From Actinotalea lenta (lineage in GTDB: Bacteria; Actinomycetota; Actinomycetes; Actinomycetales; Cellulomonadaceae), in the NCBI RefSeq assembly GCF_030586465.1, contig NZ_JAUQYP010000001.1:2150981-2214980 (forward strand): DNA of 64,000 nucleotides. The letters are read 5' to 3'. Below, piece after piece: positions 29,879-53,095 of this stretch; the stretch's first letter is position 1; each line of letters starts with the position of its first letter. The position numbers and the translations under genes are program-made. The notes beneath the pieces are model-generated. The model searched no databases. It worked only from the letters and a program-made list of their open reading frames with translations, and was not told where the DNA came from.

Positions 29879-30181
29879 ATGGACGCCGCCCAGGTCGGCG
29901 CGACGGTACGGATGACCGTCGTGACCAGTGAGGCCTGCCACTTCTGCGAGCAGGCACAGCAGGAGCTCGCACGACTCTCCCAGCACTTCTCGCTCGGCGT
30001 CCGGGCGGTGCCTGTCGAGTCGCCCGAGGGTGCCGCGCTCCTGGCTCGTCACCGACCGGCGATGAACCCGCTCGTCCTGGCCGACGGGGCGTTCTTCAGT
30101 GCCGGCCGACTGCCGGTCAAGAAGCTGATCCGGCACCTGGAGCGCGTCGGCGCAACCCGCACGGCGGACGGGACGGCCTGA
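29879..30181 (+). CDS. Glutaredoxin-like thiol protein
   Basis: The 100-residue protein has a CHFC redox motif (Cys20, Cys23) after the first beta strand (VRMTVVTSEACHFC), and it has the size of a glutaredoxin/thioredoxin-fold protein. A Pro before the third strand (MNPLVLADG) corresponds to the cis-Pro of the fold. It is the first of three coupled genes (this one, a CcdA-like membrane thiol transporter, a TlpA-like anchored thiol protein); together they look like a route for electrons from cytoplasmic thiols to the outside face. Confidence 0.8.
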   Translation: MDAAQVGATVRMTVVTSEACHFCEQAQQELARLSQHFSLGVRAVPVESPEGAALLARHRPAMNPLVLADGAFFSAGRLPVKKLIRHLERVGATRTADGTA

Positions 30182-31119
30182 TGGGCACCCTGCTGACGAC
30201 CGGCAGCATCCTGGCCGCGTTCTTCGCCGGCGGCGTGGCGCTGTTCGCCCCGTGCTGCATCGTCTTCCTGGCACCCAGCTACCTGGCCGTCGCCGCGAAG
30301 AACCGTCGCTGGCGCCTGCTGCCGCTGACCTTCGTGTTCGCCGCTGGGCTCGCCCTGGTGCTGGTGCCGATCACCGTGGGTGCCAGCCTGCTCTCAGCCG
30401 CGATCGCGTCCTACCACTCGGTGCTGTACTACGGCGGAGCCATCCTCATGCTCGCGCTGGCCGTGCTGAGCCTGTCGGGGCGGATGTGGTCGCTCCCTTC
30501 CTTCATCGCATCGCCGGACACCAGTCGCGGTGACTCGGCGAGCTTCTTCGCCCTGGGGGTCTTCTCCGGAATCGCCTCGAGCTGCTGCGCGCCGGTGCTC
30601 GTCGGGGTGATGACCTTGTCGGCCCTCTCCGGTTCGGCTCTCGGTGGTGTGGCCCTGGGTCTGGCGTACGTGTTCGGCATGACGTTCCCGCTGTTCGTCA
30701 TGGCACTGGTCTGGGACAAGGCACGACTGTCCGAACGACGCTGGATGCGGGCCAAGCCGCTGCGTCTGACCGTCGCGGGCCGGACGCTGGTCACGAACAC
30801 CGTGAACCTGGCTGTCGCGATCGTGTTCGCGATCATGGCCGGCCTGGTGGCCTGGTTGGCCGCCGCCGGCGAGATGACCGGGGGGACGGGCGCCCAGGCT
30901 GCCATCGCCGCGTGGCTGACGGACGTCTTCGGCGCGGTGGAGACCTGGCTCGCCCCCGTGCCCGAGCCGGTCCTGGGTCTGGCGCTGCTCGCCGTTGCGG
31001 CCGTCTTCGTGGTTGCGACGCTGCGTCGCCGCCCCGTGCTCGTGGAGCCCGGGTCCGCACCGGAGCCGCAGGCTCCCACCTGCCACGCCATCATCGACCG
31101 TGAGGAGCAGACCCGATGA
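30181..31119 (+). CDS. CcdA/DsbD-type transmembrane thiol transporter
   Basis: The 312-residue protein has about seven or eight membrane segments. The first carries APCCIVFLAPSYL and the fourth CCAPVLVG, resembling the paired cysteine-proline motifs with which CcdA/DsbD passes reducing equivalents across the membrane. The ATG overlaps the stop of the glutaredoxin-like gene by one base, and its stop overlaps the TlpA-like gene. The family normally reduces apocytochrome c or other extracytoplasmic disulfides; here the neighbours suggest copper or thiol proteins as clients. Confidence 0.85.
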   Translation: MGTLLTTGSILAAFFAGGVALFAPCCIVFLAPSYLAVAAKNRRWRLLPLTFVFAAGLALVLVPITVGASLLSAAIASYHSVLYYGGAILMLALAVLSLSGRMWSLPSFIASPDTSRGDSASFFALGVFSGIASSCCAPVLVGVMTLSALSGSALGGVALGLAYVFGMTFPLFVMALVWDKARLSERRWMRAKPLRLTVAGRTLVTNTVNLAVAIVFAIMAGLVAWLAAAGEMTGGTGAQAAIAAWLTDVFGAVETWLAPVPEPVLGLALLAVAAVFVVATLRRRPVLVEPGSAPEPQAPTCHAIIDREEQTR

Positions 31120-31745
31120 GCTCGACCAGCGAAGCACGTCGTCGCGAGGCGCAGCGTCAGCCACCCGTGGCACCCCTGCGGGCCAAGGCCGCACGCGGCC
31201 GCAGGTTGGGGTCCCTGTCCATCTGGTTGGGCGTGCTCCTGCTGGTGGCGGCAGTGACCACCGCGGGCCTGGTCACCTCTCGTCCGGCGAGCAGTGACGA
31301 CCACCATGCGGCCCCGAACTTCACCCTGCCCACCACGGCGGGGACAACCGTGTCCCTCTCGGACTTCCGCGGCCGGCCGGTGCTCCTCTACTTCAACGAG
31401 GGCGCGGGGTGCGACGCGTGCACGGCCCAGCTCGCGGCCATCGAGCAGGACCGCGCGGCGTTCGACGACCTGGGCGTCGCGATCCTGCCCATCGTCATGA
31501 ACTCCCGTGCGCAGATCCAGGCTGACCTCGACCGGTTCGGGGTCACCATCCCGGTGCTCCTGGACGACGGCGCCGTCTCCAAGGCCTACGACACCCTCGG
31601 CAAGGGAATGCACGCGGGCCTGCCCGGGCACTCATTCATCCTCATCGACGCCCAGGGCACCCAGCTGTGGTACGGCGAGTACCCGTCGATGTGGCTCGCT
31701 CCTGCCGACCTCCGCAAGGAGATCACCTCGCGGCTCGACGCGTGA
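31116..31745 (+). CDS. Membrane-anchored TlpA/peroxiredoxin-like thiol-disulfide protein
   Basis: The 209-residue protein has an N-terminal basic stretch and one membrane helix (residues ~33-53), then an extracytoplasmic thioredoxin-fold domain (APNFTLPTTAGTTVSLSDFRGRPVLLYF) with CDAC (Cys99, Cys102). The AhpC/TSA-like layout and HSFILIDAQG strand are seen. It would receive electrons from the CcdA-like protein, with which its gene overlaps by 4 bases (ATGA). Substrates are likely extracytoplasmic cysteine or metalloproteins. Confidence 0.85.
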   Translation: MSSTSEARRREAQRQPPVAPLRAKAARGRRLGSLSIWLGVLLLVAAVTTAGLVTSRPASSDDHHAAPNFTLPTTAGTTVSLSDFRGRPVLLYFNEGAGCDACTAQLAAIEQDRAAFDDLGVAILPIVMNSRAQIQADLDRFGVTIPVLLDDGAVSKAYDTLGKGMHAGLPGHSFILIDAQGTQLWYGEYPSMWLAPADLRKEITSRLDA

Positions 31746-32268: not shown

Positions 32269-33657
32269 TCACCGCCCGAGAGGTGCGGACACCCGGATCG
32301 TCGTCCCGGCGCCCAGCTGGGACTCGACCGCCAGCTGGGCGCCGATCCGCTCTGCGCGCTCGTTGGCTCCGATGAGCCCCAGCCCGCCGGTGCCGTCCCG
32401 GTCAGGGGAGAAGCCTCGGCCGTCGTCGCGGATGCTCACCGTGAGCCTGGCGCCGAACTCGACGTCCAGTGCCACGCTTCGCGCCCCGGAGTGCTTGGCG
32501 GCGTTGGTCAGTGCCTCCTGGGCGATCCGGTAGACGGCGAGCTCGACGTCGCTCGGGGCGCGGGTCACCGCGCCGACCGTCCGGACGTGGACACTGATCT
32601 TGGCCCGCTTCTGCACGGTGTCGGCGAGCTGGCGCAGTGCCGGCACGAGGCCGAGGTCGTCCAGGATGGGCGGGCGAAGACCTTGGATCAGCTGACGCAG
32701 CGCCGCGGAGGCGTTGCGGGCGACGTCCAGGCCGTCCTGCACGGGCTGGACGAGCACCGAGGGCAGCAGCGGGTCGCTGCCGAGCTCGTCGAGGCTCCTC
32801 GTGAGGTAGGTGAGCTGCTGGAGCGGGTCGTCGTGCAGCTCACGTGACAGGTGAAGCCGCTCCTGCTCCTGGACCTCCAGGACCCGGCCCGTGAACGCAC
32901 GTTGGACCTCGCGCCGCCGGTGCTCGGGGGAGACATCCGCCAGGAGCACCTGGGTCACGGTGCGACCGTCCCGGTCGGTGAGCGAGTGGGTCGAGGGCAT
33001 GTACTGGCGGACAGTGCCGTCCGGCCCCGCGATCGGGAGCGGGACGTCCCGCTCGAGGAGGTCGTGTGGGGTCTGTCCCACCACCGCGACCAGCGGTCGA
33101 CCGACGACGGCGTGTCCGAGCACGCGGAGGGCGGCGCCGTTCGCCTCGACGACGACACCGTCGGCATCAGTGACGACCACAGGCGATGGCTGGTGCTCGA
33201 ACAGGTCATGGAACCTGGCCTCGGCGACGGCGACCTGTCGCAGTGCACGCTCCGTGCGGGTCCGCGCGTCCCGTTCGGCATCCACCTGTCGGCCCACGAC
33301 GGCCCCGCTCGCGCCCAGGACGACCATGCTGACGAGCTCGATCCACAGGTGCGCGCTCGTGACCGGGTCGCGGTGCACCACCAACCAGTGCAGCGCGAAC
33401 AGCGCCGTCGCCCACCCCGCGGTCGCGAGGGCGCCTGCGGCGCCGAAGCTCATCGCCGCGTAGAGCACCGGGATGAGCATGAGGCTCGAGGTCAGGGGGG
33501 CAGGGATGCCCACGAGGTCCCGGCCGTCGAGCGAGGCCAGCACCAGCGTGTGGAGGGTCATGATCGCGAGGATCGTGGCCTGGAGGATCCAGAAGCGTCG
33601 GGACCGGACGGGCACGGTGAGCCGGTGGCGGCCACCGCCCGGCTCAGCGGTCGGCAT
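32269..33657 (-). CDS. NarL-type sensor histidine kinase with PAS domain
   Basis: The 462-residue kinase has about four membrane segments (residues ~22-42, 55-95, 105-123), a PAS domain (FHDLFEHQPSPVVVTDADG, ~149-245), a HisKA_3 domain with His275 in SRELHDDPLQQL, and an HATPase_c domain (NAAKHSG, DDGRGF, GGLGLIGANERA). The ATG at 33657 overlaps the regulator gene's end by 14 bases; a TTG at 33672 would add five residues. It phosphorylates the LuxR-type regulator upstream. The PAS fold could sense redox state or oxygen, but no heme or flavin ligand can be assigned. Confidence 0.9.
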   Translation of the reverse strand: MPTAEPGGGRHRLTVPVRSRRFWILQATILAIMTLHTLVLASLDGRDLVGIPAPLTSSLMLIPVLYAAMSFGAAGALATAGWATALFALHWLVVHRDPVTSAHLWIELVSMVVLGASGAVVGRQVDAERDARTRTERALRQVAVAEARFHDLFEHQPSPVVVTDADGVVVEANGAALRVLGHAVVGRPLVAVVGQTPHDLLERDVPLPIAGPDGTVRQYMPSTHSLTDRDGRTVTQVLLADVSPEHRRREVQRAFTGRVLEVQEQERLHLSRELHDDPLQQLTYLTRSLDELGSDPLLPSVLVQPVQDGLDVARNASAALRQLIQGLRPPILDDLGLVPALRQLADTVQKRAKISVHVRTVGAVTRAPSDVELAVYRIAQEALTNAAKHSGARSVALDVEFGARLTVSIRDDGRGFSPDRDGTGGLGLIGANERAERIGAQLAVESQLGAGTTIRVSAPLGR

Positions 33658-34297
33658 CGGGGCCCCTGACAAGGCCGAGGGCGAGGGCTGTCACGACCGC
33701 CTCGGTCCGGGAGTGCACCGCGAGCTTGGCGTAGATGCCTTCGCAGTGGCGTTCCACGGTCCTCGGGCTGATGTGCAACCTCCCTGCGATGCGCTTGTTG
33801 GGCAGACCCTGGGCCAACAGGTCGAGCACCGCGTGCTCCCGCTCACTCAGGGCGGGAGCCTGACTCCGTGTGTCGCGGTGGGTCGCCAACAGACGTGCCA
33901 GCACATCGTGGCGGACGACGCTGCGGCCGGCGACCACCGACCGGATCGCGTCCACCAGGTCGTGGCCAGGCGCTGCCTTGCTGAGGTGGCCGGAGGCGCC
34001 CGCCTCCAACGCCCCACGGACGTACTCGTCGTCCTCGTACGCGCTGACGATCAACACGTGGACACGGGGATGGGCGTCCCGCAGGAGTCGTGTGGCCTCG
34101 ATGCCGCTGATGCCGGGCAGCCGGACGTCCATGAGGACCACATCCGGCTCCAGACGCGCGGCGAGAGCGACGGCCATCTCGCCGCTGTCCGCCTCGCCGA
34201 CGACTTCGATGTCCTGATGCTGGGCAAGGATCCCGCGCGCACCGTCGCGGTGGAGCGGGTGGTCGTCGACGACGAGAACACGGATGACCTCCGTCAC
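33644..34297 (-). CDS. LuxR/NarL-type response regulator
   Basis: A 217-residue regulator. The receiver has the acidic pair Asp11-Asp12, phosphoacceptor Asp57 in VVLMDVRLPG and the SAYEDDEYV/LSKAA conserved Ser and Lys regions. The C-terminal NarL HTH begins LSEREHAVLDLLAQGLPNKRI. It is co-transcribed with the overlapping sensor kinase. It is divergent from the cytochrome b operon, so that operon and the other respiratory genes are plausible targets. Confidence 0.92.
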   Translation of the reverse strand: MTEVIRVLVVDDHPLHRDGARGILAQHQDIEVVGEADSGEMAVALAARLEPDVVLMDVRLPGISGIEATRLLRDAHPRVHVLIVSAYEDDEYVRGALEAGASGHLSKAAPGHDLVDAIRSVVAGRSVVRHDVLARLLATHRDTRSQAPALSEREHAVLDLLAQGLPNKRIAGRLHISPRTVERHCEGIYAKLAVHSRTEAVVTALALGLVRGPDADR

Positions 34298-34478
34298 GTC
34301 CCGAACCCTATGTCAGGCCGTTGCCTCGACCCCTGGGTGATCCCACGCAGTGCACCTGGGTAGAGCCCGCCGGAACGGCGCGGGGTAGGCCCCTGGCCGG
34401 GCCCGGACCCTGCTCGAAGAATCGAAGGGAGGTCGCCGACTCCCGTCGGCGAGTGACTGACCTTGGAGGGCACGAGTG

Positions 34479-35078
34479 ATGCGCAGACGGATCCCGCACG
34501 CCAGGCGCCGGCCGTGGTGGACGGTGCTGGTCTCGTGCGTGCTGGCCGCCGCTGGGACCGTCTCGCTCGCCTCGGCGGCGTGGGCGCACGGCGACGGGGA
34601 AGGCGAGACCAAGGAGGGCTATCTCCTCGTCCAGCAGGCACTCGGCTATCTGGCCCACCAGGGAACGAACGGCATCGACGCCGCACTGGAGAAGATCGAC
34701 GACACGCTCGCGACGACCGACCAGGAGGGCGTGGACGTCAGCCAGGTCGAGGCGGCCCAGAGCGCCCTCAGCTCAGGTGATGTCGCAAAGGGGCAGGAGC
34801 TGCTCCAGGCGTCGATCACGGAGGCGGTGAGCGACCTCCCGCCCGCCGTCGGCTCGGCGACCGGAACCACGGTCATCCCGTCCGACATGCCAGGGCGCGG
34901 AGCTCTCGGAGGATCGGACTGGGTCTTCCTGGGGGCATCGGCACTGTTCGCGGCGCTTGGCGCCTGGCTCGCGGCCAGGCTCCGGCCGGCGGACACCGTC
35001 CGGTCGCTCCGGGCGCGGCTGGGGACCGGGGAGCTGACACAGGGGAACGAGGAGTCAGCAGGGATGGAGCGAGCATGA
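34479..35078 (+). CDS. Exported helical protein with C-terminal membrane anchor
   Basis: The 199-residue protein has a signal peptide (basic start, hydrophobic core to SLASAAWAHG), an extracellular helical domain with a long acidic coil (residues ~40-115), and a C-terminal membrane helix (DWVFLGASALFAALGAWLAA). There are no cysteines or heme motifs. GGAGGG lies 8 bases ahead of the ATG, with an alternative GTG one codon earlier. Its stop overlaps the start of cytochrome b (ATGA), so it is probably a subunit or assembly factor of that complex. Confidence 0.7.
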   Translation: MRRRIPHARRRPWWTVLVSCVLAAAGTVSLASAAWAHGDGEGETKEGYLLVQQALGYLAHQGTNGIDAALEKIDDTLATTDQEGVDVSQVEAAQSALSSGDVAKGQELLQASITEAVSDLPPAVGSATGTTVIPSDMPGRGALGGSDWVFLGASALFAALGAWLAARLRPADTVRSLRARLGTGELTQGNEESAGMERA

Positions 35079-36205
35079 CCACGAGCACCCGAACGAGCCC
35101 TGGAACGACCGCCTCGGCGAACCCTGAGCAGAGTGATGTACGCCGCGGACGCGGCCGTGCCGTGCTGGACGTCGTCGACGAGCGGTTGGGCATCAGCGCC
35201 CTGGAGTATCCCGTACCCGGTCACGCGAACAACCTGGCCTGGAGCCTCGGCGGGATCACCGCTGCCTCGCTCGGCATCCTGATCGTCACAGGGATCCTGC
35301 TGGTGCAGTTCTACAGTCCGACGCCGGAGACCGCGAACGCCTCGGTGCGGCACATCGTCACCGGCGTCTGGGGTGGCGGGTTCGTGCGTGGTGTGCACTT
35401 CTGGGCAGCGCAGGCGATGTACGTGACCGCGCTGCTCCACCTCGGTCGGGTCTTCGTCTCGGGCTCCTACAAGCGCCCGCGCGAGGGCAACTACCTCGTC
35501 GGCGTCGCGATGCTCGGACTGGTCACCCTCGCGATCTTCACCGGCACCGTGCTCAAGTGGGATCAGGAGGGTTTCGAGGCTCTTGGTCACAACATCGAGA
35601 TCGGCAACCTGCTCGGTGGCGCAGGGCTGTGGTTCTCACCGCAGTTCGCCGACCAGGTCCCCATCCTGGTGCGCCTGTACGCCGCGCACACCGTCATCGT
35701 CCCCGGTCTGATCCTCGTGCTGGCGGTCCTGCACGGACTTCTCGTCAAGAAGCACAGAATCTCGCCGCACCCGGCGCTACCCACCGACGCCTCGGGAACG
35801 CAGGCCCCCGCCGACGAGCCGACCGCGCCGTTCACCCACCACCTGCGCCGGATCGCGGCCTTCGGCCTGGCCCTGCTCGGGATCCTGGGGATCCTCGCGG
35901 TGCTGCTGCCGCCGGCCGTCGGCGCACCCCCGGTCGAGGGCATCGAGATCACCCGCCCGCCGTGGATGTTCTGGTGGGTCTTCACGCTGGAGAACTGGAT
36001 CGGTCTGTCCGGCATCCTGTGGGGCGAGCTGGCCTTCTTCGCACTCCTCGTCGCCCTGCCGTTCATCGACCGCAACCCGAATCGCCTCTGGCGGCGCCGT
36101 CCGGTGGCGATGGCGCTCGGGTCGGTGCTCATGGTTCTCCTGGCCGTCCTGACCGTCCTCATGGTCGTGACTCCGGCGAAGCAGCACCTCGGAATGGGGA
36201 TGTGA
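35075..36205 (+). CDS. Cytochrome b, b6-like, without adjacent Rieske protein
   Basis: The 376-residue membrane protein has two bis-histidine heme sites: His108/His122 (VRGVHFWAAQAMYVTALLHL) and His205/His220 (YAAHTVIVPGLILVLAVLH). The second pair is 15 residues apart, as in cytochrome b6 rather than in mitochondrial cytochrome b. Four helices are followed by a linker and a subunit IV-like part. The Qo-site PEWY motif is replaced by PPWM (RPPWMFWWVF), so the usual bifurcating quinol oxidation is doubtful. No Rieske or cytochrome c gene is near. It is coupled to genes for small membrane or exported proteins on both sides, so it probably forms a quinone-linked complex of unknown donor. Confidence 0.87.
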   Translation: MTTSTRTSPGTTASANPEQSDVRRGRGRAVLDVVDERLGISALEYPVPGHANNLAWSLGGITAASLGILIVTGILLVQFYSPTPETANASVRHIVTGVWGGGFVRGVHFWAAQAMYVTALLHLGRVFVSGSYKRPREGNYLVGVAMLGLVTLAIFTGTVLKWDQEGFEALGHNIEIGNLLGGAGLWFSPQFADQVPILVRLYAAHTVIVPGLILVLAVLHGLLVKKHRISPHPALPTDASGTQAPADEPTAPFTHHLRRIAAFGLALLGILGILAVLLPPAVGAPPVEGIEITRPPWMFWWVFTLENWIGLSGILWGELAFFALLVALPFIDRNPNRLWRRRPVAMALGSVLMVLLAVLTVLMVVTPAKQHLGMGM

Positions 36206-36507
36206 CGGTGCCGACGCCCCCGCGAGAGCAGGTGCCAGATGCCGCTGGGCGCGCACGCCGGTCCTTCTGGGTGCTGACCGCAGCGGCGATCGCGGGAACC
36301 GGGTCGCTGAGCGGGGCGATCGGTGCTCCTCCGTCTCCGCTCACCGGCGTGTGGTTCGGGGTGAGCGCGCTCGTGGTCGTCGCCTCCCTCGGGCTGGCCC
36401 TGCGCGTGATGGGGGCACTGGCTCGCGTCGGCGGTGGAGGCGTCAGGGCGGTGGCCCGGGAGCTCACGGCTCCGTCTCGCGGGACGGGATCGGGTGCGGG
36501 CCGGTAG
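36202..36507 (+). CDS. Small two-helix membrane protein of the cytochrome b operon
   Basis: The 101-residue protein begins VTVPTPPREQ and has two hydrophobic segments (residues ~22-42 and 48-70) and a basic tail. Its GTG overlaps the cytochrome b stop (GTGA), so the two are translated together. No motif is recognised. It may be an accessory subunit of the cytochrome b complex. Confidence 0.6.
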   Translation: MTVPTPPREQVPDAAGRARRSFWVLTAAAIAGTGSLSGAIGAPPSPLTGVWFGVSALVVVASLGLALRVMGALARVGGGGVRAVARELTAPSRGTGSGAGR

Positions 36508-36924: not shown

Positions 36925-37125
36925 ATGGCGGAGACGACGATCGACCCGGTGTGCGGGATGAGTGTGGACCAGGCGACCGCGCCGAGCGCTGAGGTCGACG
37001 GGACGACGTACTACTTCTGCGCCCCGGGGTGCCGCAAGGCGTTCGTGGCCGACCCGGCGTCGTTCCTCGGGGGCGGGCACACGCACGGTGGCCACGAGCA
37101 CGGGCACGGCGGCCAGCACCACTGA
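36925..37125 (+). CDS. YHS-domain small metal protein with His-rich tail
   Basis: The 66-residue protein starts MAETTIDPVCGMSVD, the YHS-domain opening, and has YYFCAPGCRKAF; the three cysteines can bind a metal. The C-terminus is a Gly/His tail (HTHGGHEHGHGGQHH). YHS domains are often fused to or encoded beside copper ATPases and act in delivery of the ion. GGAGGAGGG precedes the ATG. It is 63 bases from the copper ATPase, so both are probably under the CsoR-type operator. Confidence 0.87.
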   Translation: MAETTIDPVCGMSVDQATAPSAEVDGTTYYFCAPGCRKAFVADPASFLGGGHTHGGHEHGHGGQHH

Positions 37126-37188: not shown

Positions 37189-39483
37189 ATGGCTGGGCAG
37201 ATCATCGAGCTGGAGATCGGCGGGATGACGTGCTCGTCGTGCGCCTCCCGGATCGAGCGCAAGCTCAACAAGCTGCCGGGTGTCGAGGCGAGCGTCAACT
37301 TCGCCACGGAGAAGGCGCGGGTCGTTCTTCCCGAGGGCACCGAGACCGAGATCGCGATCGCGACCGTGGAAGCGACCGGCTACTCGGCAGTCCTGCCGGC
37401 GCCACCGGACGACGCCGACCAGGCAGACGGTGAGCCGGTCGACGCCGAGACCGAGGCGCTGCGCCGCCGGCTCATCGTCACCGCGGTGCTCACGACACCG
37501 GTCGTGCTGTTGTCGATGGTGCGGCCGTTGCAGTTCGACAACTGGCAGTGGCTGTCCCTGACGCTGGCCGCGCCCGTCGTGGTGTGGGGCGCTCTACCGT
37601 TCCACCGGGCGACGTGGACCAACCTTCGCCACCGTGCGGCGACCATGGACACCCTGATCAGCGTCGGCGTGAGCGCGGCCTTCCTGTGGTCGCTGGTCGC
37701 CCTCTTCTTCGGCAGCGCGGGCGAACCCGGCATGCGCATGCAGTTCACGCTGCTGCCCGCACGTGGCGCCGGCGGGATGACCGAGATCTACCTCGAGGTC
37801 GCCTCCGCGGTCACCGTCTTCATCCTGCTGGGCCGCTACCTCGAAGCCCGCGCCAAGCGCCGCTCGGGGGCGGCCTTGCGTGCCCTGCTGGAGATGGGCG
37901 CCAAGGACGTCGCCGTCCTGCGCGACGGCGCCGAGCAGCGCATCCCCGTCTCGCAGCTGGCCGTGGGCGACCGATTCGTGGTCCGCCCGGGCGAGAAGAT
38001 CGCGACCGACGGCCGCGTCGTCGAAGGCGCCTCCGCGGTGGACGCCTCGATGCTCACCGGCGAGCCGGTCCCGGTCGAGGTCACCGTCGGCGACCAGGTC
38101 GTCGGCGCGACCGTCAACGCCGGCGGGCGCCTGGTGGTCGAGGCCACAAGGATCGGCGCGGACACCCAGCTCGCGCAGATGGCCAAGCTCGTCGAGGAGG
38201 CCCAGACCGGCAAGGCCCCCGTGCAGCGCCTCGCCGACCGGATCTCGGCGGTGTTCGTGCCGGTCGTCATCTCGCTGGCCATCCTGACGCTGTTCGGATG
38301 GCTGATCGCCGGTGCCGGCGCCCAGGCCGCCTTCACCGCTGCCGTGGCCGTGCTGATCATCGCCTGCCCGTGCGCCCTGGGTCTGGCCACCCCGACTGCC
38401 CTGATGGTCGGCACCGGCCGCGGGGCGCAGCTGGGCCTCCTCATCAAGGGCCCGCAGATCCTGGAGTCCACCCGCCGGGTCGACACGATCGTGCTGGACA
38501 AGACCGGCACGGTCACGGCCGGCCGGATGCAGCTGGTGGGCGTCGTCCCGGTGGGGAGCGCCGACGCCGACGAGCTGCTGCGCCTGGCCGGAGCGGTCGA
38601 GGGCGCGTCGGAGCACCCGATCGCTGCGGCGATCGCCACCGCGGCGAGCGATCGCCTCGGCCCGCTGCCGACCGTGGGTGACTTCGCCAACGTGCAGGGA
38701 CGCGGCGTGACGGGCACGGTCGACGGTCACGCCGTGCTGGCCGGCCGCCCCTTGTGGATGGCGGAGACTCTGACGATCGCGCTGCCGGGCGAGGCCCAGG
38801 TCGCGGTGGACCGCGCCCAGGAGGCAGGCCACACCGTGGTCGCCGTCGGCTGGGACGGTGAGGTCCGCGGTGTCCTGATGGTCGCCGACACCCTCAAGCC
38901 GACCTCGGCCCAGGCGGTCCGCGAGCTCGTCGGGCTGGGTCTCACGCCCGTCCTGCTGACCGGGGACAACGCGCGAGCCGCGGCGACGGTGGCCGGCCAG
39001 GTGGGCGTCACTGAGGTCATCGCGGACGTGCTGCCCCAGGACAAGGTCGACGTCGTACGCCGCCTGCAGGCCGAAGGCCGCGTGGTCGCGATGGTGGGCG
39101 ACGGCGTCAACGACGCGGCCGCCCTGGCCCAGTCCGACCTGGGCATCGCGATGGGCACCGGGACGGACGTGGCCATCGAGGCTTCCGACCTCACGCTGGT
39201 GCGCGGGGACCTGCGCGCCGCCGTGGACGCGATCCGCCTGTCGCGGCGGACCCTGGCGACGATCAAGGGCAACCTGTTCTGGGCGTTCGCCTACAACACC
39301 GCCGCGATCCCGCTGGCCATCGCCGGGATGCTCAACCCGCTGATCGCCGGCGCGGCGATGGCGTTCTCCTCGGTGTTCGTCGTGACGAACAGCCTGCGGC
39401 TGCGCCGGTTCACCGCCGTGTCGCTCGACGCCGCGGCGCAGCCGAGTGCTGCTGCGACTGTGCCGGTCGGTGCGTCGGCCTGA
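37189..39483 (+). CDS. copA: Copper-translocating P1B-type ATPase
   Basis: The 764-residue pump has one N-terminal heavy-metal-associated domain with GGMTCSSC (Cys15, Cys18), membrane helices from ~residue 95, the transmembrane CPC (Cys393-Pro-Cys395), phosphorylation Asp437 in DKTGT, the HP motif in SEHPIAAA and the hinge GDGVND. These are the marks of Cu(I)-exporting ATPases of the CopA/CtpV type. AGGAGAGGAG lies upstream of the ATG. It follows the YHS gene and precedes an OmpR-type two-component pair that may react to copper or envelope stress. Confidence 0.96.
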
Positions 39484-41356: not shown

Positions 41357-42760
41357 TCACGAGGTGAGGTGCCCGGAGAAGGCGCTCAGCACCGGCCCGG
41401 CCACCAGCCCCAGGCCGAGCGCGACCACACCGGCGGCCACCGCCACGGTCGACGCGCTGCGCACCGCGCCACCGTCGGGCACCTGGTCGTCGGGGGGAGC
41501 GATGAACGCGGCGCGTATCCAGCGCAGGTAGTACGCGAGGCTGACGACCGTCAGGATCGCCGCGAGCACGACGAGCCAGGGCCAGCCGGCCCCCCAGGCG
41601 GCCGAGAACACGGTGACCTTCCCGGCGAAGATGGCGGTCGGCGGGGTGCCGACCAGACCGAGCATGGCGATGACGAGGGCGGTAGCGCTGGCCGGGTGGC
41701 TGCGCGCGAGGCCGGCCCAGTCGGCCATCACGCGGCGCCCCGGGTGCGCGGCGGCCACGGCGAATGCGGCCACGTTCGTGACCGCGTAACCCGCGAGGTA
41801 CAGCCCCACGGCCGGAAGTGCCTCCGGGTCCGACAGCGCGGCCGGGGCCATGAGCAGGAACCCGACCTGAGCCACCGCGGACCAGCCGAGGAGCCGGCGG
41901 GTGTCGTCCTGTCCGAGGGCGGCCAGGTTGCCCACGATCATCGACGCCGCAGCCATGATCGCGACGGCCCAGGTGGCCGCGACCGCCACACCACCCATGA
42001 GGTCGACGATGCGGAGGACCGCCAGGACACCACCGATCTTGGGCACCGTGGTGACGAACGCTGCCGCAGTGACGCTGCCACCTTGAGCCGCGTCGGGCAG
42101 CCAGAAGTGGCCCGGTACGGCGGCGGCCTTGAACGCGAGGCCGGCGAGCAGTGCTACGAGTCCCACGGCGACGCCTGCCGGGGGGGCGGTGACGAGGCCT
42201 GCGTGCAGGTCGCGGTAGCCGGTGGCGCCGCCGACGCCGTACAGCACGACCGTACCGAGCAGCATCGTCACGCCGAGCATGGCGCCCAGCAGGTACGTCT
42301 TCAGGGCCGCCTCCGCGGCAGCGCCGGCGCGGCCCAAGCCGACGAGGGCATACACCGGGATCGAGGCGAGGAGATACCCCGCCGCGAGCACCGCGAGGTC
42401 GGTGGCACCGGCCAGCACGACGGCTCCGGCCGTGCCGAGCAGCACGAGGGTGTAGGTCTCCGCCTCACGTGTCGTGCGGGCCAGCTCACCTGCTCCGAGC
42501 CAGATCACCCCGAGACTCGCCAGTGGTGCGACCACTCGGGCCACGGCGGTGGCGGGGTCGAGCGCGTAGCTGTGCTCGAAGATCGATCCGGTGCCCGCCG
42601 CGAGCGCCGTGGCCACGGAGCCCAGCAGGACGGCGCTGGCGACCCAGCGGGTGAGCGGCAGGCGCCGGCGGGGGAGGAAGGACCCGAGGAGCAGCACCAG
42701 GACCGATCCCGCGACCAGCACGCCCTCGGGTGCCAGGGCGGTGTAGTCGTGCCCGCTCAT
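41357..42760 (-). CDS. nuoN: NuoN-like complex I antiporter subunit
   Basis: The 467-residue protein has 13-14 hydrophobic helices and the proton-channel landmark VPGHFWLPDAAQGGSVTAAAFVTTVPKIGG, in which His/Lys residues line the channel. It belongs to the Mrp-like antiporter family with NuoL and NuoM. It is the last gene of the complex I-like operon, 25 bases after NuoM. There is no distal electron-input module in this operon, so the subunit would translocate ions for an unknown driver. Confidence 0.9.
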   Translation of the reverse strand: MSGHDYTALAPEGVLVAGSVLVLLLGSFLPRRRLPLTRWVASAVLLGSVATALAAGTGSIFEHSYALDPATAVARVVAPLASLGVIWLGAGELARTTREAETYTLVLLGTAGAVVLAGATDLAVLAAGYLLASIPVYALVGLGRAGAAAEAALKTYLLGAMLGVTMLLGTVVLYGVGGATGYRDLHAGLVTAPPAGVAVGLVALLAGLAFKAAAVPGHFWLPDAAQGGSVTAAAFVTTVPKIGGVLAVLRIVDLMGGVAVAATWAVAIMAAASMIVGNLAALGQDDTRRLLGWSAVAQVGFLLMAPAALSDPEALPAVGLYLAGYAVTNVAAFAVAAAHPGRRVMADWAGLARSHPASATALVIAMLGLVGTPPTAIFAGKVTVFSAAWGAGWPWLVVLAAILTVVSLAYYLRWIRAAFIAPPDDQVPDGGAVRSASTVAVAAGVVALGLGLVAGPVLSAFSGHLTS

Positions 42761-42785
42761 CGCTCATCCTCCGCACGCACGCCCG

Positions 42786-44273
42786 TCACCCTCCGATCGC
42801 CGAGATCACGGACGCGGCGAACGGCCGGATCAGGTCGAGCACCGGGCCGGGGACGATGCCGAGGGCCAGCGACAGCGCCAGGAGGCCGCCTGCGCCCACC
42901 AGCTCGGCGCCCCGCAGGTCGGCGAACCCGCGCGTGGCGGGGCCTTCGGGGCCGGTGAAGACGCGGTGGAACGCCCGCAGGAAGAGGGCGGCCGTCAGCA
43001 GGATGCCCGGCAGGGCGAGCGCCGCGACCCAGGTCGCCGCGATGGACCCGGTGAAGATCTGGAACTCGGCCACGAACCCGGACAGCGCCGGGAGTCCGAG
43101 CGACGCCAGCGCCCCCACGGCGAACAGGGCCGTGTAGCGCGGGGCCACGCCCGCCAGGCCCCCGAACCGGTCCATCTCGTAGCTGTGCGCACGGCTCTCG
43201 AGGACCCCGGCAAGCAGGAAGAGCGCGCCGGTGACCAGCCCGTGGCTGACCATCTGGGTGACGGCGCCCGTGATCGCGACCTCGCGGGCGGTGGCCGAGT
43301 CGGGCGCCACCAGCCCCGCCGCACCGACCGCGAGCACCACGTAGCCCATGTGGTTCACCGACGTGTAGGCGATCATCCGCTTGACGTTGTTCTGCGCCAG
43401 GGCGACCAGCGCCCCGTAGAGCACGGAGACGAGCCCGACCGCCACGATCGCCCACGCCCAGGACCGCCAGGCGTCGGGAAGCAGGGGCATCCCGACCCGA
43501 AGGAAGCCGTAGGTCCCCATCTTCAGCAGCACGCCGGCGAGGATCGCGGAGCCGACCGCAGGTGCGTCGGTGTGGGCCGGGGGCAGCCAGGTGTGGAAGG
43601 GGACCGTCGGGGTCTTGATCGCCAGGCCCAGCAGGATCAGTCCCAGGACCGCGCCACCGGCCAGGGCGGTGCCGCCCTGGGCGCGCGCCACCAGCGTGGG
43701 GATGTCGAAGGTGTGCGGCGTGGATCCGAGGTACAGCCCGATGAAGCCGACCAGCAGGGCGAGCGAGCCCAGGAACGTGTACAGGAAGAACTGCAGCGCC
43801 GACCGCTTGGCCTGCTCTCCGTGACCCCAGCCCGCGATGACCGCGTACATCGCCACGATCGACAGGTCGAAGAACAGGAAGAACAGGATCAGGTCCTGGG
43901 CCGCGAACAACCCCAGGCACGTGGTCTGCAGAGCGAGGAACAGCGCGGCCAGGCGGCGGACGCGGTCATCCATGCGCAACGCCCAGACCGCACACGCAGC
44001 GAACAGGACGTCGGTCACCAGCAGCATCGGCAGCGACAGGCCGTCGACACCCACGTGGTAGGACACGCCCGCGCCGGGGATCCAGTCGACCTGCTCGGCG
44101 TAGGCCAACCCACCGGCTGCCGGCGGGCGGTAGCCCATGGTCATCGCGACCACCAACGCCAGGTCTGCGACGGTGACGGCGAGCCACACGCCCCGAGCGG
44201 GCCGTGGCCCGGTCCTGCTGAAGGCGAGCAGGGCCGCACCCAGCAACGGCAGGAACACGATCACGGTCAGCAT
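42786..44273 (-). CDS. nuoM: NuoM-like complex I antiporter subunit
   Basis: The 495-residue subunit has about 14 helices. The channel motifs are canonical: HVGVDGLSLPMLLVTD, KTPTVPFHTWLPPAHTDAPA and SVLLKMGTYG-type (ILAGVLLKMGTYGFLR), plus YTSVNHMGYVVLA. Essential Lys and Glu positions therefore look intact. The ATG overlaps the NuoL stop by one base (TGATG). Confidence 0.93.
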   Translation of the reverse strand: MLTVIVFLPLLGAALLAFSRTGPRPARGVWLAVTVADLALVVAMTMGYRPPAAGGLAYAEQVDWIPGAGVSYHVGVDGLSLPMLLVTDVLFAACAVWALRMDDRVRRLAALFLALQTTCLGLFAAQDLILFFLFFDLSIVAMYAVIAGWGHGEQAKRSALQFFLYTFLGSLALLVGFIGLYLGSTPHTFDIPTLVARAQGGTALAGGAVLGLILLGLAIKTPTVPFHTWLPPAHTDAPAVGSAILAGVLLKMGTYGFLRVGMPLLPDAWRSWAWAIVAVGLVSVLYGALVALAQNNVKRMIAYTSVNHMGYVVLAVGAAGLVAPDSATAREVAITGAVTQMVSHGLVTGALFLLAGVLESRAHSYEMDRFGGLAGVAPRYTALFAVGALASLGLPALSGFVAEFQIFTGSIAATWVAALALPGILLTAALFLRAFHRVFTGPEGPATRGFADLRGAELVGAGGLLALSLALGIVPGPVLDLIRPFAASVISAIGG

Positions 44274-46162
44274 CAAGGCCTCACCACCACGAGGAGGACG
44301 GCGCCAACGGCGAGCACGACGGCCGCGGCACCCAGGTACTGATGAACGAGCCCGGACTGCGGGCGTAGCGTGGCGCGCCCCGCGGCGCGCACGGAGCCGG
44401 CGACCGCGCGCACGGCACCGTCGACCCCCGAGACGTCCAGGCGTGCCGCGGCGGCGGCCACGGTCGTCGTCGCGCGGGCCGTGCCCGCGACCGCGCGGTC
44501 CAGCGCCCGGTCCAGCCGGTCGGCACGTGCGGCGAGCGTCTCGACGGGCGTCACCACGAGGACGGCCGCGGCACGGTCGAGGTCGAACCATCGCACCGCG
44601 CCAGGGACCGGTCGCGGCACCCGGCGCAGCACCAGACCGAACGCGGTCACGGCCAGCGCGGCGGACAGTGCCATCTCTGCTGCCCCCGGCGTGGCCGCTC
44701 CCGTCACGCCGAGCAGGGCGTCGACCGCGTCGGAGGCGGCCGGCACCAGGAGGGCGACGGGTGCCAGGGCGCCTCCCGCGAGCACCGCGAGGGGCAGGAC
44801 GGCGGCCCGCGGCACGTGCCGGTCGCCGGGCTCCTCGCTGTCCCACCCGGGCCGATCGGTGGGACGGCGTTCGGGACCGCGCCACGCTGCCCGCAGCGCG
44901 ACGGCCGCGTAGCCCGCGGACAGCACGGCGCCGATGAGCGCGACCCCGTACAGCCATCCGCTGCGTTCGGCGGCAGCGGCCAGGACGTGGTCCTTGGTCA
45001 CCCACAGCCCGAGCGGGGGCAGTCCGGCCAACGTCAGCGCGGCGAGCGTGAACAGCACCCCGACGGCGCGCCACCAGCGCGCCGCGCCGGCCATCGCCTC
45101 GAGCTGTTTGGTCCCGAGGGCCGTGAGCCACAGTCCCGCAACGAGGAACAGCAACGCCTTGGTGCCCGCGTGCCCGAGCAGGTGCTCTGTCCCACCGGCC
45201 GCGTCGCCCACTCCTGCAGCCAGGACCACGAAGCCCAGCTGGGCGGAGGTCGAGGCGGCGAGGAGCTGTTTGAGGTCCTGCTGCGCCATCGCCACCACCC
45301 CGAGGACCACGGTGGTCACCGCGCCGGTCCACGCCGCTGCCGAGGCAACCGCGGGTGTTGCCGCAAGGAGCGGCTCGACGCGCAGGAGCAGGTACCCGCC
45401 CATCGCCACCATCGCCGCCGAGTGCAGCAACGCGCTGACTGGGCTGGGGCCCAGCATCGCCTTGGACAGCCAGACGCTGAACGGTAGCTGCGCGGCCTTC
45501 CCGAGCGCTGCGACCACGACGCCGACGGCCACGACCTGGCGCCACGGCGAGGAGAGGTCCGGGAGGGCCTCGAGCCCGAGCCCGAGATGGTCCGATGCCG
45601 AGCCGGCCGCCGCGGCGCCCGCCGCCAGGTACAGGCCGAGATCCGCTGTCCGGGTGGTGACGAACGCGGCCACACCGGCCGACGTCCGCTCCGGATCGCG
45701 CCACCGGAACCCGATCAGCGACCAGGACGCGGCGCCCATCAGCTCCCACCCGAGCAGCAGCGCCGGCAGCGACGTGGCGGTGAGCGTGACCGCGACCGCC
45801 GCCACGAACAGCAGCATCAACCCGTGGAACCGGGCGGCCGGCTCGGTGCGCTCGACGGCGGCCGCGACCAGCACCAGGAGGGCGACGGCCAGCACACCGG
45901 GCAGCAGCAGCGCGGTCAGGCCGTCCACGCCCAGCGCGAAGGCGCCCCCTGGGATGAACGACCACGTCAGGACGGGTCGGCCTGCGGACACCAGGATGCC
46001 GAGGGCCACGCTGAGACTCGCCGTGGCCAGGGCGATGCCGCTCGCGGTGCGATCCCGCGCCGGTGCGTGTCCCGTCCGGGCACGTGCGGCCCCGCGGCCC
46101 AGCAGGCCCGCGCCACCGAGCGCGGGGAGCGCGACGAGCGCGAGGAGCGAGCCGCCGCTCAT
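44273..46162 (-). CDS. nuoL: NuoL-like complex I antiporter subunit
   Basis: The 629-residue subunit shows FSVWLSKAMLGPSPVSALLH and HLLGHAGTKALLFLVAG, the NuoL/NuoM channel motifs. Its C-terminal ~150 residues have further hydrophobic segments and a long amphipathic stretch that could be the lateral helix HL spanning the antiporter subunits. The length is typical of NuoL. It starts on a 4-base overlap with NuoK. Confidence 0.93.
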   Translation of the reverse strand: MSGGSLLALVALPALGGAGLLGRGAARARTGHAPARDRTASGIALATASLSVALGILVSAGRPVLTWSFIPGGAFALGVDGLTALLLPGVLAVALLVLVAAAVERTEPAARFHGLMLLFVAAVAVTLTATSLPALLLGWELMGAASWSLIGFRWRDPERTSAGVAAFVTTRTADLGLYLAAGAAAAGSASDHLGLGLEALPDLSSPWRQVVAVGVVVAALGKAAQLPFSVWLSKAMLGPSPVSALLHSAAMVAMGGYLLLRVEPLLAATPAVASAAAWTGAVTTVVLGVVAMAQQDLKQLLAASTSAQLGFVVLAAGVGDAAGGTEHLLGHAGTKALLFLVAGLWLTALGTKQLEAMAGAARWWRAVGVLFTLAALTLAGLPPLGLWVTKDHVLAAAAERSGWLYGVALIGAVLSAGYAAVALRAAWRGPERRPTDRPGWDSEEPGDRHVPRAAVLPLAVLAGGALAPVALLVPAASDAVDALLGVTGAATPGAAEMALSAALAVTAFGLVLRRVPRPVPGAVRWFDLDRAAAVLVVTPVETLAARADRLDRALDRAVAGTARATTTVAAAAARLDVSGVDGAVRAVAGSVRAAGRATLRPQSGLVHQYLGAAAVVLAVGAVLLVVVRP

Positions 46163-46461
46163 CGCTTGAGCTCGCTCGCCATGTCCGTCATGTCCGTGCC
46201 ACGACGTCGGTGCAGCAGGAGCGCGACGGCGAAGCCCATCGCCATCTCCACCGTCATCGCCGCGATCACCACGAGCAGGAGCACCTGGCCGTCGGGCGAC
46301 GGCGTGGTGAACCACCAGAACGCACCGCCTGCAAGGATCACGGCGTTGATCATGAGCTCGATCCCCATCATCACCATCACGACCACCTGCTGGGACAGCG
46401 CGCCCCACAGGCCGACGGCGAACAACGCGGCGGCCACCACGAGCACGAGGGACAGGGTCAT
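46159..46461 (-). CDS. nuoK: NuoK-like complex I subunit
   Basis: The 100-residue protein has three membrane helices. It carries the two membrane glutamates that are essential in NuoK: in MMGIELMINAVI and in AAMTVEMAMGFAVAL. It overlaps NuoJ and NuoL by 4 bases on both sides. The C-terminal tail is basic and Met-rich (RRRGTDMTDMASELKR). Confidence 0.94.
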   Translation of the reverse strand: MTLSLVLVVAAALFAVGLWGALSQQVVVMVMMGIELMINAVILAGGAFWWFTTPSPDGQVLLLVVIAAMTVEMAMGFAVALLLHRRRGTDMTDMASELKR

Positions 46462-47021
46462 CGGCCGACACCGCCCTGGATCGGGTCGTCCGGATGGTCG
46501 CGCTCGAGGTCGTCGCCGTATCGCTGGTAACGGTCCCGGGGGTGCCCCAGCACCAGCGCACCGATGATCGTGGCGAACAGCACCGGGCTGACGGTGAGCA
46601 TCACGAGCATCTTCGAGCCCATGACGGCGTCCCCCAGGCTTCGCGTGAGGTCGGCCGCGGGGGCACCGGCCCTGTCGGGCCACGGGATCAGGAGGGCCGC
46701 GGCCGCGAGACCCACGAACACCACGGCGGCGACCACGGTCGCGGTGCGCTTGCCGTGCACCATGGACATGGGCATCAGCGCTGGATTCATGCCCATCAGC
46801 ATGATCATGAACAGCGCCATGATCGCCATCTCCATGACCATCATGAGGATGACGATCACGCCCAGGTAGTCCAGCTCGAAGGCGAGGAGCATCACCCCGA
46901 CCGCCACGAAGGATGCGGCGAGCGCGTAGGAGGCGCGGGCCATGGAGTCGGTGCGGAACACCTCGACCCCGGCGGCCACCGCGACCAGCGCCGCGACCCA
47001 GAACACGATCGTCCCGATCAC
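46458..47021 (-). CDS. nuoJ: NuoJ-like complex I subunit
   Basis: The 187-residue protein has five hydrophobic segments. A methionine-rich one (LMMVMEMAIMALFMIMLMGMNP) corresponds to TM3 of NuoJ. The GTG start at 47021 has GGGAGG 7 bases before it and overlaps the NuoH stop (GTGA). The many methionines in TM3 and the following loop are unusual, though NuoJ tolerates changes there. Confidence 0.9.
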   Translation of the reverse strand: MIGTIVFWVAALVAVAAGVEVFRTDSMARASYALAASFVAVGVMLLAFELDYLGVIVILMMVMEMAIMALFMIMLMGMNPALMPMSMVHGKRTATVVAAVVFVGLAAAALLIPWPDRAGAPAADLTRSLGDAVMGSKMLVMLTVSPVLFATIIGALVLGHPRDRYQRYGDDLERDHPDDPIQGGVGR

Positions 47022-49025: not shown

Positions 49026-49369
49026 ACCCACCGCAGCACTCCCTCGCGCCATGCCCACACGACGCCCGCGAGCAGCACGCCGAGGAAGGCGAACATCTCG
49101 ACGATCGCCGCGGTGCCTCGGGCGGCGACCACGAGGGCCCACGGGTACATGAACAACATCTCGACGTCGAACGCCAGGAAGAGCAGGGTCATGGGATACC
49201 AGCGCGCGTGGTACCGGGACAGCGCGTGCTCGTCCGGACTGTGCCCTGACTGGAACGGCAGCGTCGTCAGCGGCGGTCGGCCCGCGGCGAGCCGGGAGGC
49301 GAGTCGCACCAGCACCACGAGCCCGGCCGTGGCCAGACCCGCGACGCCCAGACCTGCCCACGCGGTCAT
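49022..49369 (-). CDS. nuoA: NuoA-like complex I subunit
   Basis: The 115-residue protein has three membrane helices and the canonical NuoA block RYHARWYPMTLLFLAFDVEM, in which the membrane Asp and Glu are conserved. The first loop is unusually cysteine-free (FQSGHSPDEHALSRY). It is the first gene of the eight-gene operon; the ATG at 49369 is preferred over an upstream extension. Its stop overlaps the NuoB/D-like GTG. Confidence 0.9.
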   Translation of the reverse strand: MTAWAGLGVAGLATAGLVVLVRLASRLAAGRPPLTTLPFQSGHSPDEHALSRYHARWYPMTLLFLAFDVEMLFMYPWALVVAARGTAAIVEMFAFLGVLLAGVVWAWREGVLRWV

Positions 49370-52211: not shown

Positions 52212-52493
52212 ATGATGGGGATGTACGGCGGCATGGGCGGCGCAGGCTGGTTGGGCATGGGCCTGTTCTGGTTGGTGCTCATCGGCCTGGTGGTCTGGTT
52301 GGTCATTCGGCTGCTGCCCGAACGGGGCCACCGGTCAGATGCGCCGACGCCCCCGCCGCCCACCGGCGCGTCGACTCCGAGCGGGTCCGCGCTGGAGGTG
52401 CTGGACCAGCGCCTGGCCCGCGGTGAGGTGGACGTCGAGACCTACCGGAGCACGCGTGCGGCGATCCTGGATGCGCGCGGGGGTGGCCGGTGA
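52212..52493 (+). CDS. Small SHOCT-domain membrane protein
   Basis: A 93-residue protein with a Met/Gly-rich start (MMGMYGGMGGAGW), one membrane helix (WLGMGLFWLVLIGLVVWLVI) and a C-terminal SHOCT motif (VLDQRLARGEVDVETYRS). It is the sister of the protein at 49.6 kb. AAAGGATCC lies before the ATG. Its stop overlaps the GTG of the cupredoxin gene. The methionines near the N-terminus might bind Cu(I). Confidence 0.8.
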   Translation: MMGMYGGMGGAGWLGMGLFWLVLIGLVVWLVIRLLPERGHRSDAPTPPPPTGASTPSGSALEVLDQRLARGEVDVETYRSTRAAILDARGGGR

Positions 52494-53095
52494 CCAAGGC
52501 GGCGCGCGGCTGGACGATCGCCGCCCTTGTCGCCACCGTCGCGCTGCTGGCCACGTCCCTCGCTTGGGCGGTGGGAGGCGGCGTCACGCTGTCCACCCAG
52601 CGGGGCGCGTGGCCGATGTTCCGTGCGGGCGCGCCCGGTGAAGGTCTGGCGGACCTGCCCGGGACGGTTGTCGACGTGGTCGCGGCGGACATGGCGATGA
52701 TGGGCGGCTCCGGGATGATGGGCGGCCGGTCCGCCGACGCGGGGTCGTGGCCCAGCGGGTGGATGTCGCTGACCGCCCACCGTGCGGACGTCCCTGCCGG
52801 CACCGTGACGCTCAGGGTGGTCAACGGGGGCAGCGTCGACCACGAGCTCGTGGTCCTGCCCCTGCCTGACGGTCAGCGAGTCGGTCAACGCGACGTCGGC
52901 GCCGACGGGACGGTCGACGAGTCGACGAGCCTCGGGGAGGCCTCGGCGACCAACGCCGAGGGCGAGGGCGAGGGCATCGCACCCGGCGCGCAGGGTTGGG
53001 TCACACTCGACCTGAAGCCAGGGCGCTACGAGCTGGTCTGCAACCTTCCGGGGCACTACGCCGCGGGGATGGAGACGCTGCTCGTCGTGCGCTGA
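52490..53095 (+). CDS. Exported cupredoxin-like copper protein
   Basis: The 201-residue precursor has a signal peptide or N-terminal anchor (residues ~7-28), a Met/Gly-rich stretch (MAMMGGSGMMGG, ~68-79) and a cupredoxin domain with a probable type 1 copper site: His118 (VDHELV), Cys184, His189 and Met194 (CNLPGHYAAGM). It could pass single electrons outside the membrane, for example between the cytochrome b complex and an oxidase. The GTG overlaps the SHOCT stop. The gene has a 37-base gap to the convergent Gad gene. Confidence 0.87.
   Translation: MTKAARGWTIAALVATVALLATSLAWAVGGGVTLSTQRGAWPMFRAGAPGEGLADLPGTVVDVVAADMAMMGGSGMMGGRSADAGSWPSGWMSLTAHRADVPAGTVTLRVVNGGSVDHELVVLPLPDGQRVGQRDVGADGTVDESTSLGEASATNAEGEGEGIAPGAQGWVTLDLKPGRYELVCNLPGHYAAGMETLLVVR

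Follow-up and report, generated by a model that had tools for sequence, protein, structure and literature searches.

A Rieske protein and a PEWY-type site normally go with a cytochrome b complex, and the question considered here is what a cytochrome b may do when its locus lacks both. The question is raised by a stretch of 64,000 nucleotides of Actinotalea lenta (contig NZ_JAUQYP010000001.1, positions 2,150,981 to 2,214,980), called the window in the following and numbered from its first base. Within it a b6/subunit-IV-like cytochrome b gene, named F0, was located at 35075..36205 (+) by open reading frame (ORF) calling, Pfam searches, alignment and an AlphaFold2 model. Judged by its sequence, F0 belongs to a conserved kind of cytochrome b, distinct from the QcrB of its own genome; the function tentatively favored for it is to conduct electrons, linked to menaquinone and without a Rieske protein, to an extracytoplasmic site where the metal is most likely copper.

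The 376-amino-acid (aa) product matched the Pfam families Cytochrome_B (84.8 bits) and Cytochrom_B_N_2 (80.8 bits) above their cut-offs, and Cytochrom_B_C slightly below the cut-off (19.4 bits, cut-off 20.7). The model is a confident cytochrome b fold with seven long helices (predicted local distance difference test, pLDDT, 86.6; predicted template modelling score, pTM, 0.84), and in the top rows of the structural comparison 333-338 of its residues were aligned to bc1/bcc cytochrome b chains, with a VIA Z of 28.7. Two bis-His pairs, H108/H122 with a spacing of 14 and H205/H220 with a spacing of 15, are present, and all four ligands are invariant in the 40 aligned relatives. Sequence and model together indicate a cytochrome b fold with two predicted bis-His b hemes. 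An earlier account, made from the letters of the window alone and referred to here as the sequence-only reading, had described both His pairs as intact and the Qo motif as PPWM, and both descriptions were confirmed, the motif being read as P295-P-W-M298 where PEWY is expected. Two of its statements were upheld in part. The 14/15 spacing is present, but it does not serve as a diagnostic of b6, since it is shared, in the alignment, by L082, the QcrB of A. lenta. The PEWY motif is indeed replaced, but not by decay: the replacement is a family trait, and the gene is under purifying selection, with Nei-Gojobori ratios of nonsynonymous to synonymous substitution (dN/dS) of about 0.16-0.23 relative to L004-L007. 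The possibility that the window copy is a decaying gene or a pseudogene was thus ruled out by dN/dS and by conservation in relatives.

A scan of GTDB species genomes detected 45 related loci, or 46 with the window, distributed among Actinomycetota, Chloroflexota, Spirochaetota and Candidatus Sysuimicrobiota. The cytochrome reached at least 270 bits in 11 of 396 genomes of the phylum, including that of A. lenta, and the next score, after a gap, was 231 bits. In a tree of 65 rows (LG+G4), the 46 family rows form one clade (100/96), a monophyly partly expected from rows picked by similarity; 17 canonical cytochromes b of the phylum, the b6 of 1vf5 and the QcrB of A. lenta fall outside it. Long-branch warnings apply to this tree, and the single QcrB row lies on a long branch; within these bounds the sequence-only reading, which had looked to a phylogeny with the genome's own qcrB, was right to set the cytochrome apart from canonical QcrB. 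Three loci (L050, L056, L057) have no matching called gene and were not aligned, and genome G062 is represented by L081. Against the QcrB profile NF050120, F0 scored 70 bits, the cut-off being 500. Four annotated plasmid records carry the family cytochrome, labelled only as 'cytochrome b N-terminal domain-containing protein', and in the three plasmid records examined for them the partner positions are occupied by hypothetical proteins. No recognised description of the family was found in the literature searched; a survey of Qo motifs covering such proteins may nevertheless exist outside it. As a separate observation, the genome containing L033 (G420) has PF00033 matches of 88-92 bits on contigs C20, C46, C68 and C69, in open frames of 369-512 aa, which may be four copies of the family cytochrome.

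In the 40-row alignment, from which L026, L038, L039, L044, L048 and L027 were left out, no variation is seen at K161, D163, E165, E168, H172, P295, W297 or E306, and 39 of the rows have H371. The cd block of F0 is the invariant K161-W-D-Q-E165-G-x-E168-A-x-x-H172. K161, E168 and H172 occur in none of 19 canonical rows, and E306 in none of the 18 having a residue at that position; E165 was seen in a single canonical row, L073 (RWDQEGFW), which adjoins a Rieske gene and may point to the origin of the family. At the second position of PEWY the 40 rows have P (21), L (9), W (5), M (3), A (1) or R (1), never Glu or Asp. Six further relatives (L051, L052, L054, L058, L080, L081) retain K161 and H172, with slight changes at or near E165, which is replaced by D in L058. 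The AlphaFold2 model puts H172 one turn from E168 along the helix 167-187, with E165 in the break that precedes this helix. In established cytochrome b topology the cd region and the PEWY loop border the outer Qo pocket close to heme bL, so this pocket has been rebuilt with acidic and His residues, the p-side site so proposed being derived from sequence. On the presumed cytoplasmic side H50 (39/40), R125, R136, K225, S230 and H256 are conserved. The heme-ci-binding Cys of b6 is present in one row of 40.

Among the rows left out of the alignment, L026, L038, L039 and L044 look frame-broken, L048 is a remnant and L027 is cut by a contig end. In L080 (G111) the family member is divided between two ORFs, 235 and 127 aa long, which overlap, by either a natural split or a frameshift.

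A strict Rieske motif, searched in six frames, was found within 8 kb at none of the 46 loci, 17 of the 45 fetched loci being shorter than this on one side. As a control, the motif was looked for on the called genes of the 17 nearest canonical loci, about 6 kb on each side, and was detected in 13 of them as well as next to the QcrB of A. lenta; the other four all have c-type cytochrome genes. Only one family locus (L040) has a CXXCH gene within 8 kb, and the motif is absent from all called genes of the 64-kb window. The A. lenta genome encodes four Rieske-fold proteins, all outside the window (nearest match at 2063954, the window spanning 2150981-2214980). Among the matches listed, the nearest Rieske on the same contig as a family cytochrome is 39 kb off, in G428, beside another cytochrome b. 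In G429 (locus L045) no PF00355 match was found and the family cytochrome is the sole PF00033 match, this being a metagenome-assembled genome that may be incomplete. The sequence-only reading had stated that Rieske and cytochrome c genes are lacking nearby and that the locus is unlike qcrCAB, and had allowed for a Rieske gene in the operon of relatives; the first two statements are borne out by these counts, and within the distances covered no relative has such a gene. Like that reading, we infer a quinone:acceptor complex other than QcrCAB. The constancy of the exported partner, the metal-island setting and the remodelled p-side block go beyond what that reading contained.

The cytochrome is accompanied by small genes on both sides. 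Upstream, F1 (34476..35078, +) encodes an exported helical protein, presumed to be the partner of the cytochrome from the homologues found beside it and from its AlphaFold2 model, and its ORF overlaps the cytochrome start as ATGA. Downstream, F3 (36208..36507, +) encodes a small membrane protein of 99 aa with no Pfam or NCBIfam family, and its GTG start at 36208 is two bases past the F0 stop. Overlap and gap agree with the earlier suggestion that small exported or membrane proteins are coupled with the cytochrome. F1, like F0, is under purifying selection. Its product has a signal-peptide-like N-terminus, ending A-W-A|HGDGE, and a C-terminal hydrophobic helix (146-168); the model (pLDDT 82, pTM 0.51) shows a small helical bundle, with helices 48-119.

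By clustering of neighbors, an F1 homologue adjoins the cytochrome in 31 of the 46 loci, and an F3 homologue is found downstream in 22. Within the phylum F1 was detected in 8 of 396 genomes, and each time it lay about 100 bases or less from the cytochrome. In Chloroflexota the cytochrome is followed by F11 and then F12, two other small genes (7/46), loci of the Spirochaetota type have a different exported gene upstream, F41 (3/46), and an exported-type neighbor is also found beside the cytochrome in L040, L041 and L044. Overall, an exported, membrane-anchored partner is encoded at most 225 bases away at 44 of the 46 loci, with F11 in between in Chloroflexota; the loci without one are L027, at a contig end, and L048, a remnant with no called cytochrome gene. 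In a hydropathy test all 44 partners showed a later hydrophobic helix and 40 an N-terminal one, the remaining four being F1 proteins whose start is set too early or that are truncated or weak.

The identity of F1 was sought in several ways. No convincing Pfam or NCBIfam family was found for it; Pfam YfdX matched one of the 30 members of the F1 alignment, which leaves out L037, at 0.069. The best matches in fold comparison were SmbP, which is a small protein that binds metal, and YfdX, with VIA Z of 8.1-9.1 over 72-75 residues, a range that helical bundles reach by chance. The best sequence match in the Protein Data Bank (PDB), PsaK (0.0019), covers a helical stretch only and was distrusted, and for F12 a known family was likewise rejected, its matches being weak and Ig-like only. 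A DosR-like box, GGGACNNNNGTCCC, upstream of F1 was discarded as not enriched: it occurs with at most two mismatches in 11 of 31 regions, the shuffled mean being 11.6. A further feature is the motif AH[GDEKNQT] in the first 80 residues, near the expected end of the signal peptide, which was found in 29 of 41 partners (F1 19/31, F12 7/7, F41 3/3) versus 9 of 130 controls, the latter being crude signal-peptide-like proteins from the same loci. Exported proteins commonly use an N-terminal His as a ligand for copper, and in the partners this His is retained as a lead only.

Metal-related genes are found around the cassette. In the window the cassette is followed by a gene for a YHS-domain protein with a His-rich tail (36925..37125, +; Pfam YHS, 2.3e-11) and by one for a CopA-like heavy-metal P1B ATPase (37189..39483, +; 538 bits against the copper-type model TIGR01511, cut-off 397). 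An exported Met-rich cupredoxin with the ligand pattern C-NLPG-H-YAAG-M (52490..53095, +; Pfam SoxE, Copper-bind) is encoded 16 kb from the cytochrome, and in L005, L006, L010 and L028 homologues of it lie closer to the cytochrome, at 2-7 kb. P-type ATPases were found within about 7 kb in 21 of the 46 family loci and in none of 18 canonical loci, the latter being somewhat shorter, and the five neighboring ATPases that were tested, including that of the window, all exceed the TIGR01511 cut-off.

Of 35 genomes, 12 encode a CsoR-family repressor (PF02583) no more than 10 kb away from the cytochrome, for an expectation of 0.58 (P ~2e-13), and 19 encode one within 25 kb, for an expectation of 1.44; both expectations were derived from match numbers and genome sizes, and the genomes are not independent samples. 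For other cytochromes b of the same genomes, scoring at least 90 bits, a CsoR gene was found within 10 kb in 1 case of 46. PF02583 had no match on the G420 contigs C68 or C69. Metal genes also accompany the cytochrome on plasmids. In plasmid pI of Streptomyces mirabilis P16B-1 the order is hypothetical protein (F1 position), cytochrome, hypothetical protein (F3 position), heavy-metal P-type ATPase and DUF302, with overlaps or a 3-base gap from the F1 position to the ATPase. In pFRL4 a stretch of about 9 kb takes in two P-type ATPases, a metal-sensitive regulator, DUF2933 and ICMT, and in plasmid pA of Pseudarthrobacter defluvii E5 DUF2933 and ICMT adjoin the cassette, a P-type ATPase being about 10 kb off. 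The family cytochrome is linked to metal-resistance islands.

F0 was compared with the known systems that resemble it most. Its nearest solved sequences, by profile, are those of cytochrome b6 (PetB, e.g. PDB 1vf5; 1.5e-52, 181.7 bits), with which it shares the 14/15 heme spacing, W-D-Q in the cd block and VP-x-H-(A/V)-N before helix A. It differs from b6 in being fused with a subunit-IV-like half, in lacking PEWY and in the cd block, which reads K-W-D-Q-E-G-F-E-A-x-x-H in F0 and P-W-D-Q-V-G-Y-W-A in b6; unlike b6f, the F0 loci have neither a Rieske nor a cytochrome f/c gene nearby, apart from the CXXCH gene of L040. With actinobacterial QcrB (L082; PDB 9gy6, 7qhm) it has the fold in common (VIA Z 28.6-28.7, root-mean-square deviation 3.5-3.9, 25% identity), whereas the QcrB of A. 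lenta has a PDWY motif, adjoins genes for a Rieske protein and for one with two CXXCH, and falls outside the family clade. F0 thus has the Rieske/cytochrome b fold, but it is not classed as a bc complex, because a Rieske gene, a c-type gene and a PEWY/PDWY motif are all missing.

By NCBIfam, the nearest match is ExtP of the Geobacter selenite/tellurite ext cluster (NF040969), a cytochrome that is likewise b6-like and set among metal(loid) functions. The profile matches all 40 family members and is the best for F0, yet at 141.1 bits F0 stays below half of its cut-off of 290. The gene for ExtP is reported to be accompanied by genes for multiheme cytochromes c and for ExtO, a Rieske protein (PMC5877670). 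Another two-heme system is membrane superoxide oxidase (CybB/SOO), a four-helix bundle which is reported to couple an outside one-electron reaction to quinone (PMC11869295). F0 and SOO are both b-heme membrane proteins, and the comparison assigns no membership to F0. SOO is not known to need an exported partner and belongs to a different family.

In the conduit tentatively favored here, F0 would work without a Rieske protein, in a membrane complex whose dedicated exported partner is F1 in Actinomycetota and has other folds in Chloroflexota and Spirochaetota, and which would often include a small transmembrane subunit. It would exchange electrons with menaquinone on the cytoplasmic side, which is likely because the two b hemes are kept, as are H50, R125, R136, K225, S230 and H256. 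The old Qo region (E165, E168, H172, E306 and the C-terminal H371) would hold or dock a metal center, the metal being most likely copper, which either the partner or a cupredoxin would deliver. The potential of the menaquinone couple is well below that of Cu(II)/Cu(I), which makes menaquinol the likelier donor; the preferred direction would therefore be from menaquinol through the b hemes to an extracytoplasmic metal, the outflow of electrons serving metal detoxification in the envelope. The family, its partner gene, the lack of a Rieske gene close by, the altered outer residues and the linkage to metal genes are observed; we infer the formation of a complex by these proteins, the quinone substrate, the p-side metal, its identity as copper and the direction of flow. 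If correct, the proposal would mean that bacterial resistance to copper and heavy metals, including that of plasmids (S. mirabilis P16B-1, P. defluvii E5), has a further redox step in the membrane. A family without Rieske protein and PEWY at its locus, with hemes kept and a constant exported partner, makes a natural test of what a Qo site can be turned into.

Several observations weigh against this proposal. Loss of PEWY alone is no proof of independence from Rieske proteins, and 4 of the 17 canonical rows, with APWY, have a Rieske neighbor. Some Rieske-fold protein is encoded in 35 of the 36 family genomes, and another PF00033 match is present in 34 of them; a Rieske protein could possibly be supplied in trans. 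The A. lenta genome has no CsoR-family gene near the cassette, its matches being at 713900 and 1118646, and a cupredoxin motif occurs within 8 kb at only 5 of the 46 loci. The linkage to metal genes may in part be hitch-hiking on mobile islands, which also carry lipid and stress genes. Finally, the match of F1 to SmbP is weak (Foldseek E 0.27; VIA Z 9.1, below the threshold of the tool for helical bundles), the N-terminal His is not universal in F1 (19/31), and the signal-peptide test is crude.

The alternative that survives best, itself rather unlikely, keeps the outward flow from menaquinol and replaces the metal ion as acceptor by a cupredoxin, an exported thiol/disulfide protein or an enzyme repairing envelope lipids or proteins. 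Candidates for such acceptors are at hand: stress genes recur by the cassette (F16-F18, and FtsH, ICMT and DUF302 on plasmids), the window encodes DsbD/CcdA-like, AhpC/TSA and, below cut-off, glutaredoxin-like proteins, and cupredoxin motifs are near in L005, L006, L010, L028 and L043. None of them is constant, however; besides F3, the commonest genes after those of the cassette are P-type ATPases (cluster F2, 22/46), cupredoxin motifs are confined to the 5 loci mentioned, and the block of acidic and His residues looks suited to a cation.

More doubtful is a bolder form of the metal hypothesis, in which a metal center, probably copper, held by the rebuilt p-side site (E165/E168/H172/E306) together with the exported, N-terminal-His partner, would replace the Rieske cluster as the high-potential acceptor in quinol oxidation. 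If true, it would be the first known cytochrome b complex of this sort, a quinol:copper oxidoreductase that perhaps still bifurcates and that mobile islands of metal resistance have taken up in at least four phyla.

A flow in the opposite sense, as in SOO, is slightly less probable again: a reductant produced under metal stress, for example superoxide, would deliver electrons to heme bL from outside, and menaquinone would be reduced inside. The two b hemes, the conserved His, Arg and Lys of the inner side and the lack of a partner with a recognised redox cofactor would fit such a function, and at E <= 0.01 Pfam Ni_hydr_CYTB matches 17 and DUF4405 39 of the 40 members. The charged cluster of SOO is presumably a positive one. 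SOO is reported to collect superoxide with this cluster (PMC11869295), whereas the invariant block of the family is net acidic; the family also differs from SOO in its full cytochrome b architecture and in having a constant exported partner. A metal is preferred to superoxide because the invariant acidic and His residues suit a cation better.

An ordinary bc-type Q cycle, in which Rieske protein and cytochrome c come in trans from QcrCA or another Rieske protein, would be allowed by the 35 and 34 genomes mentioned above, and is improbable: the old Qo block is rebuilt in all 40 members, a Rieske motif is near none of the 46 loci, and G429, possibly an incomplete assembly, has no PF00355 match. 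A quinone- or metal-sensing or structural subunit on a cytochrome b scaffold, with no electron flow, is very improbable, as the four heme ligands, invariant in 40 of 40 members, would be odd in a mere scaffold, even with a two-component system that adjoins the cassette and diverges from it in the window and in L004, L005 and L006.

That two-component system consists of a LuxR-type response regulator (33644..34297, -; Response_reg and GerE), which is a candidate regulator, and a sensor kinase (32269..33672, -; PAS, HisKA_3 and HATPase_c by Pfam). The response regulator is divergent and next to F1 in the window and in the same three loci. Its cluster, F4, which is merged with other response regulators, is represented at 15 of the 46 loci, and that of the sensor kinase, F7, at 8.

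Further upstream, at 29879-31745 (+), genes for glutaredoxin-like (below cut-off), DsbD/CcdA-like and AhpC/TSA proteins are found in a row, and homologues of the first two are also together near L019. F16, F17 and F18 recur near the cassette at 5 loci each (L022, L024, L035, L044 and others); F18 we take to be PspA-like and F16 HtpX-like, by reading of their sequences.

A complex-I-like membrane module is located at 41357-49369 (-) and comprises NuoA, a protein denoted X, NuoH, NuoJ, a 100-aa protein in the NuoK position, NuoL, NuoM and NuoN. X (47937-49031, 364 aa) occupies the place of the hydrophilic subunits and belongs to no Pfam or NCBIfam family; it has a weak likeness to NuoB over residues 30-80 (phmmer, 0.009), with one Cys there, and a run of MDHGDM repeats resembling copper-binding regions. 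The PF01058 (NuoB-family) matches of the genome lie elsewhere. A similar module is beside the cassette in L007 and L016, the L007 copy being upstream in the same direction, and the Nuo-like module is possibly a second unusual respiratory module of metal islands.

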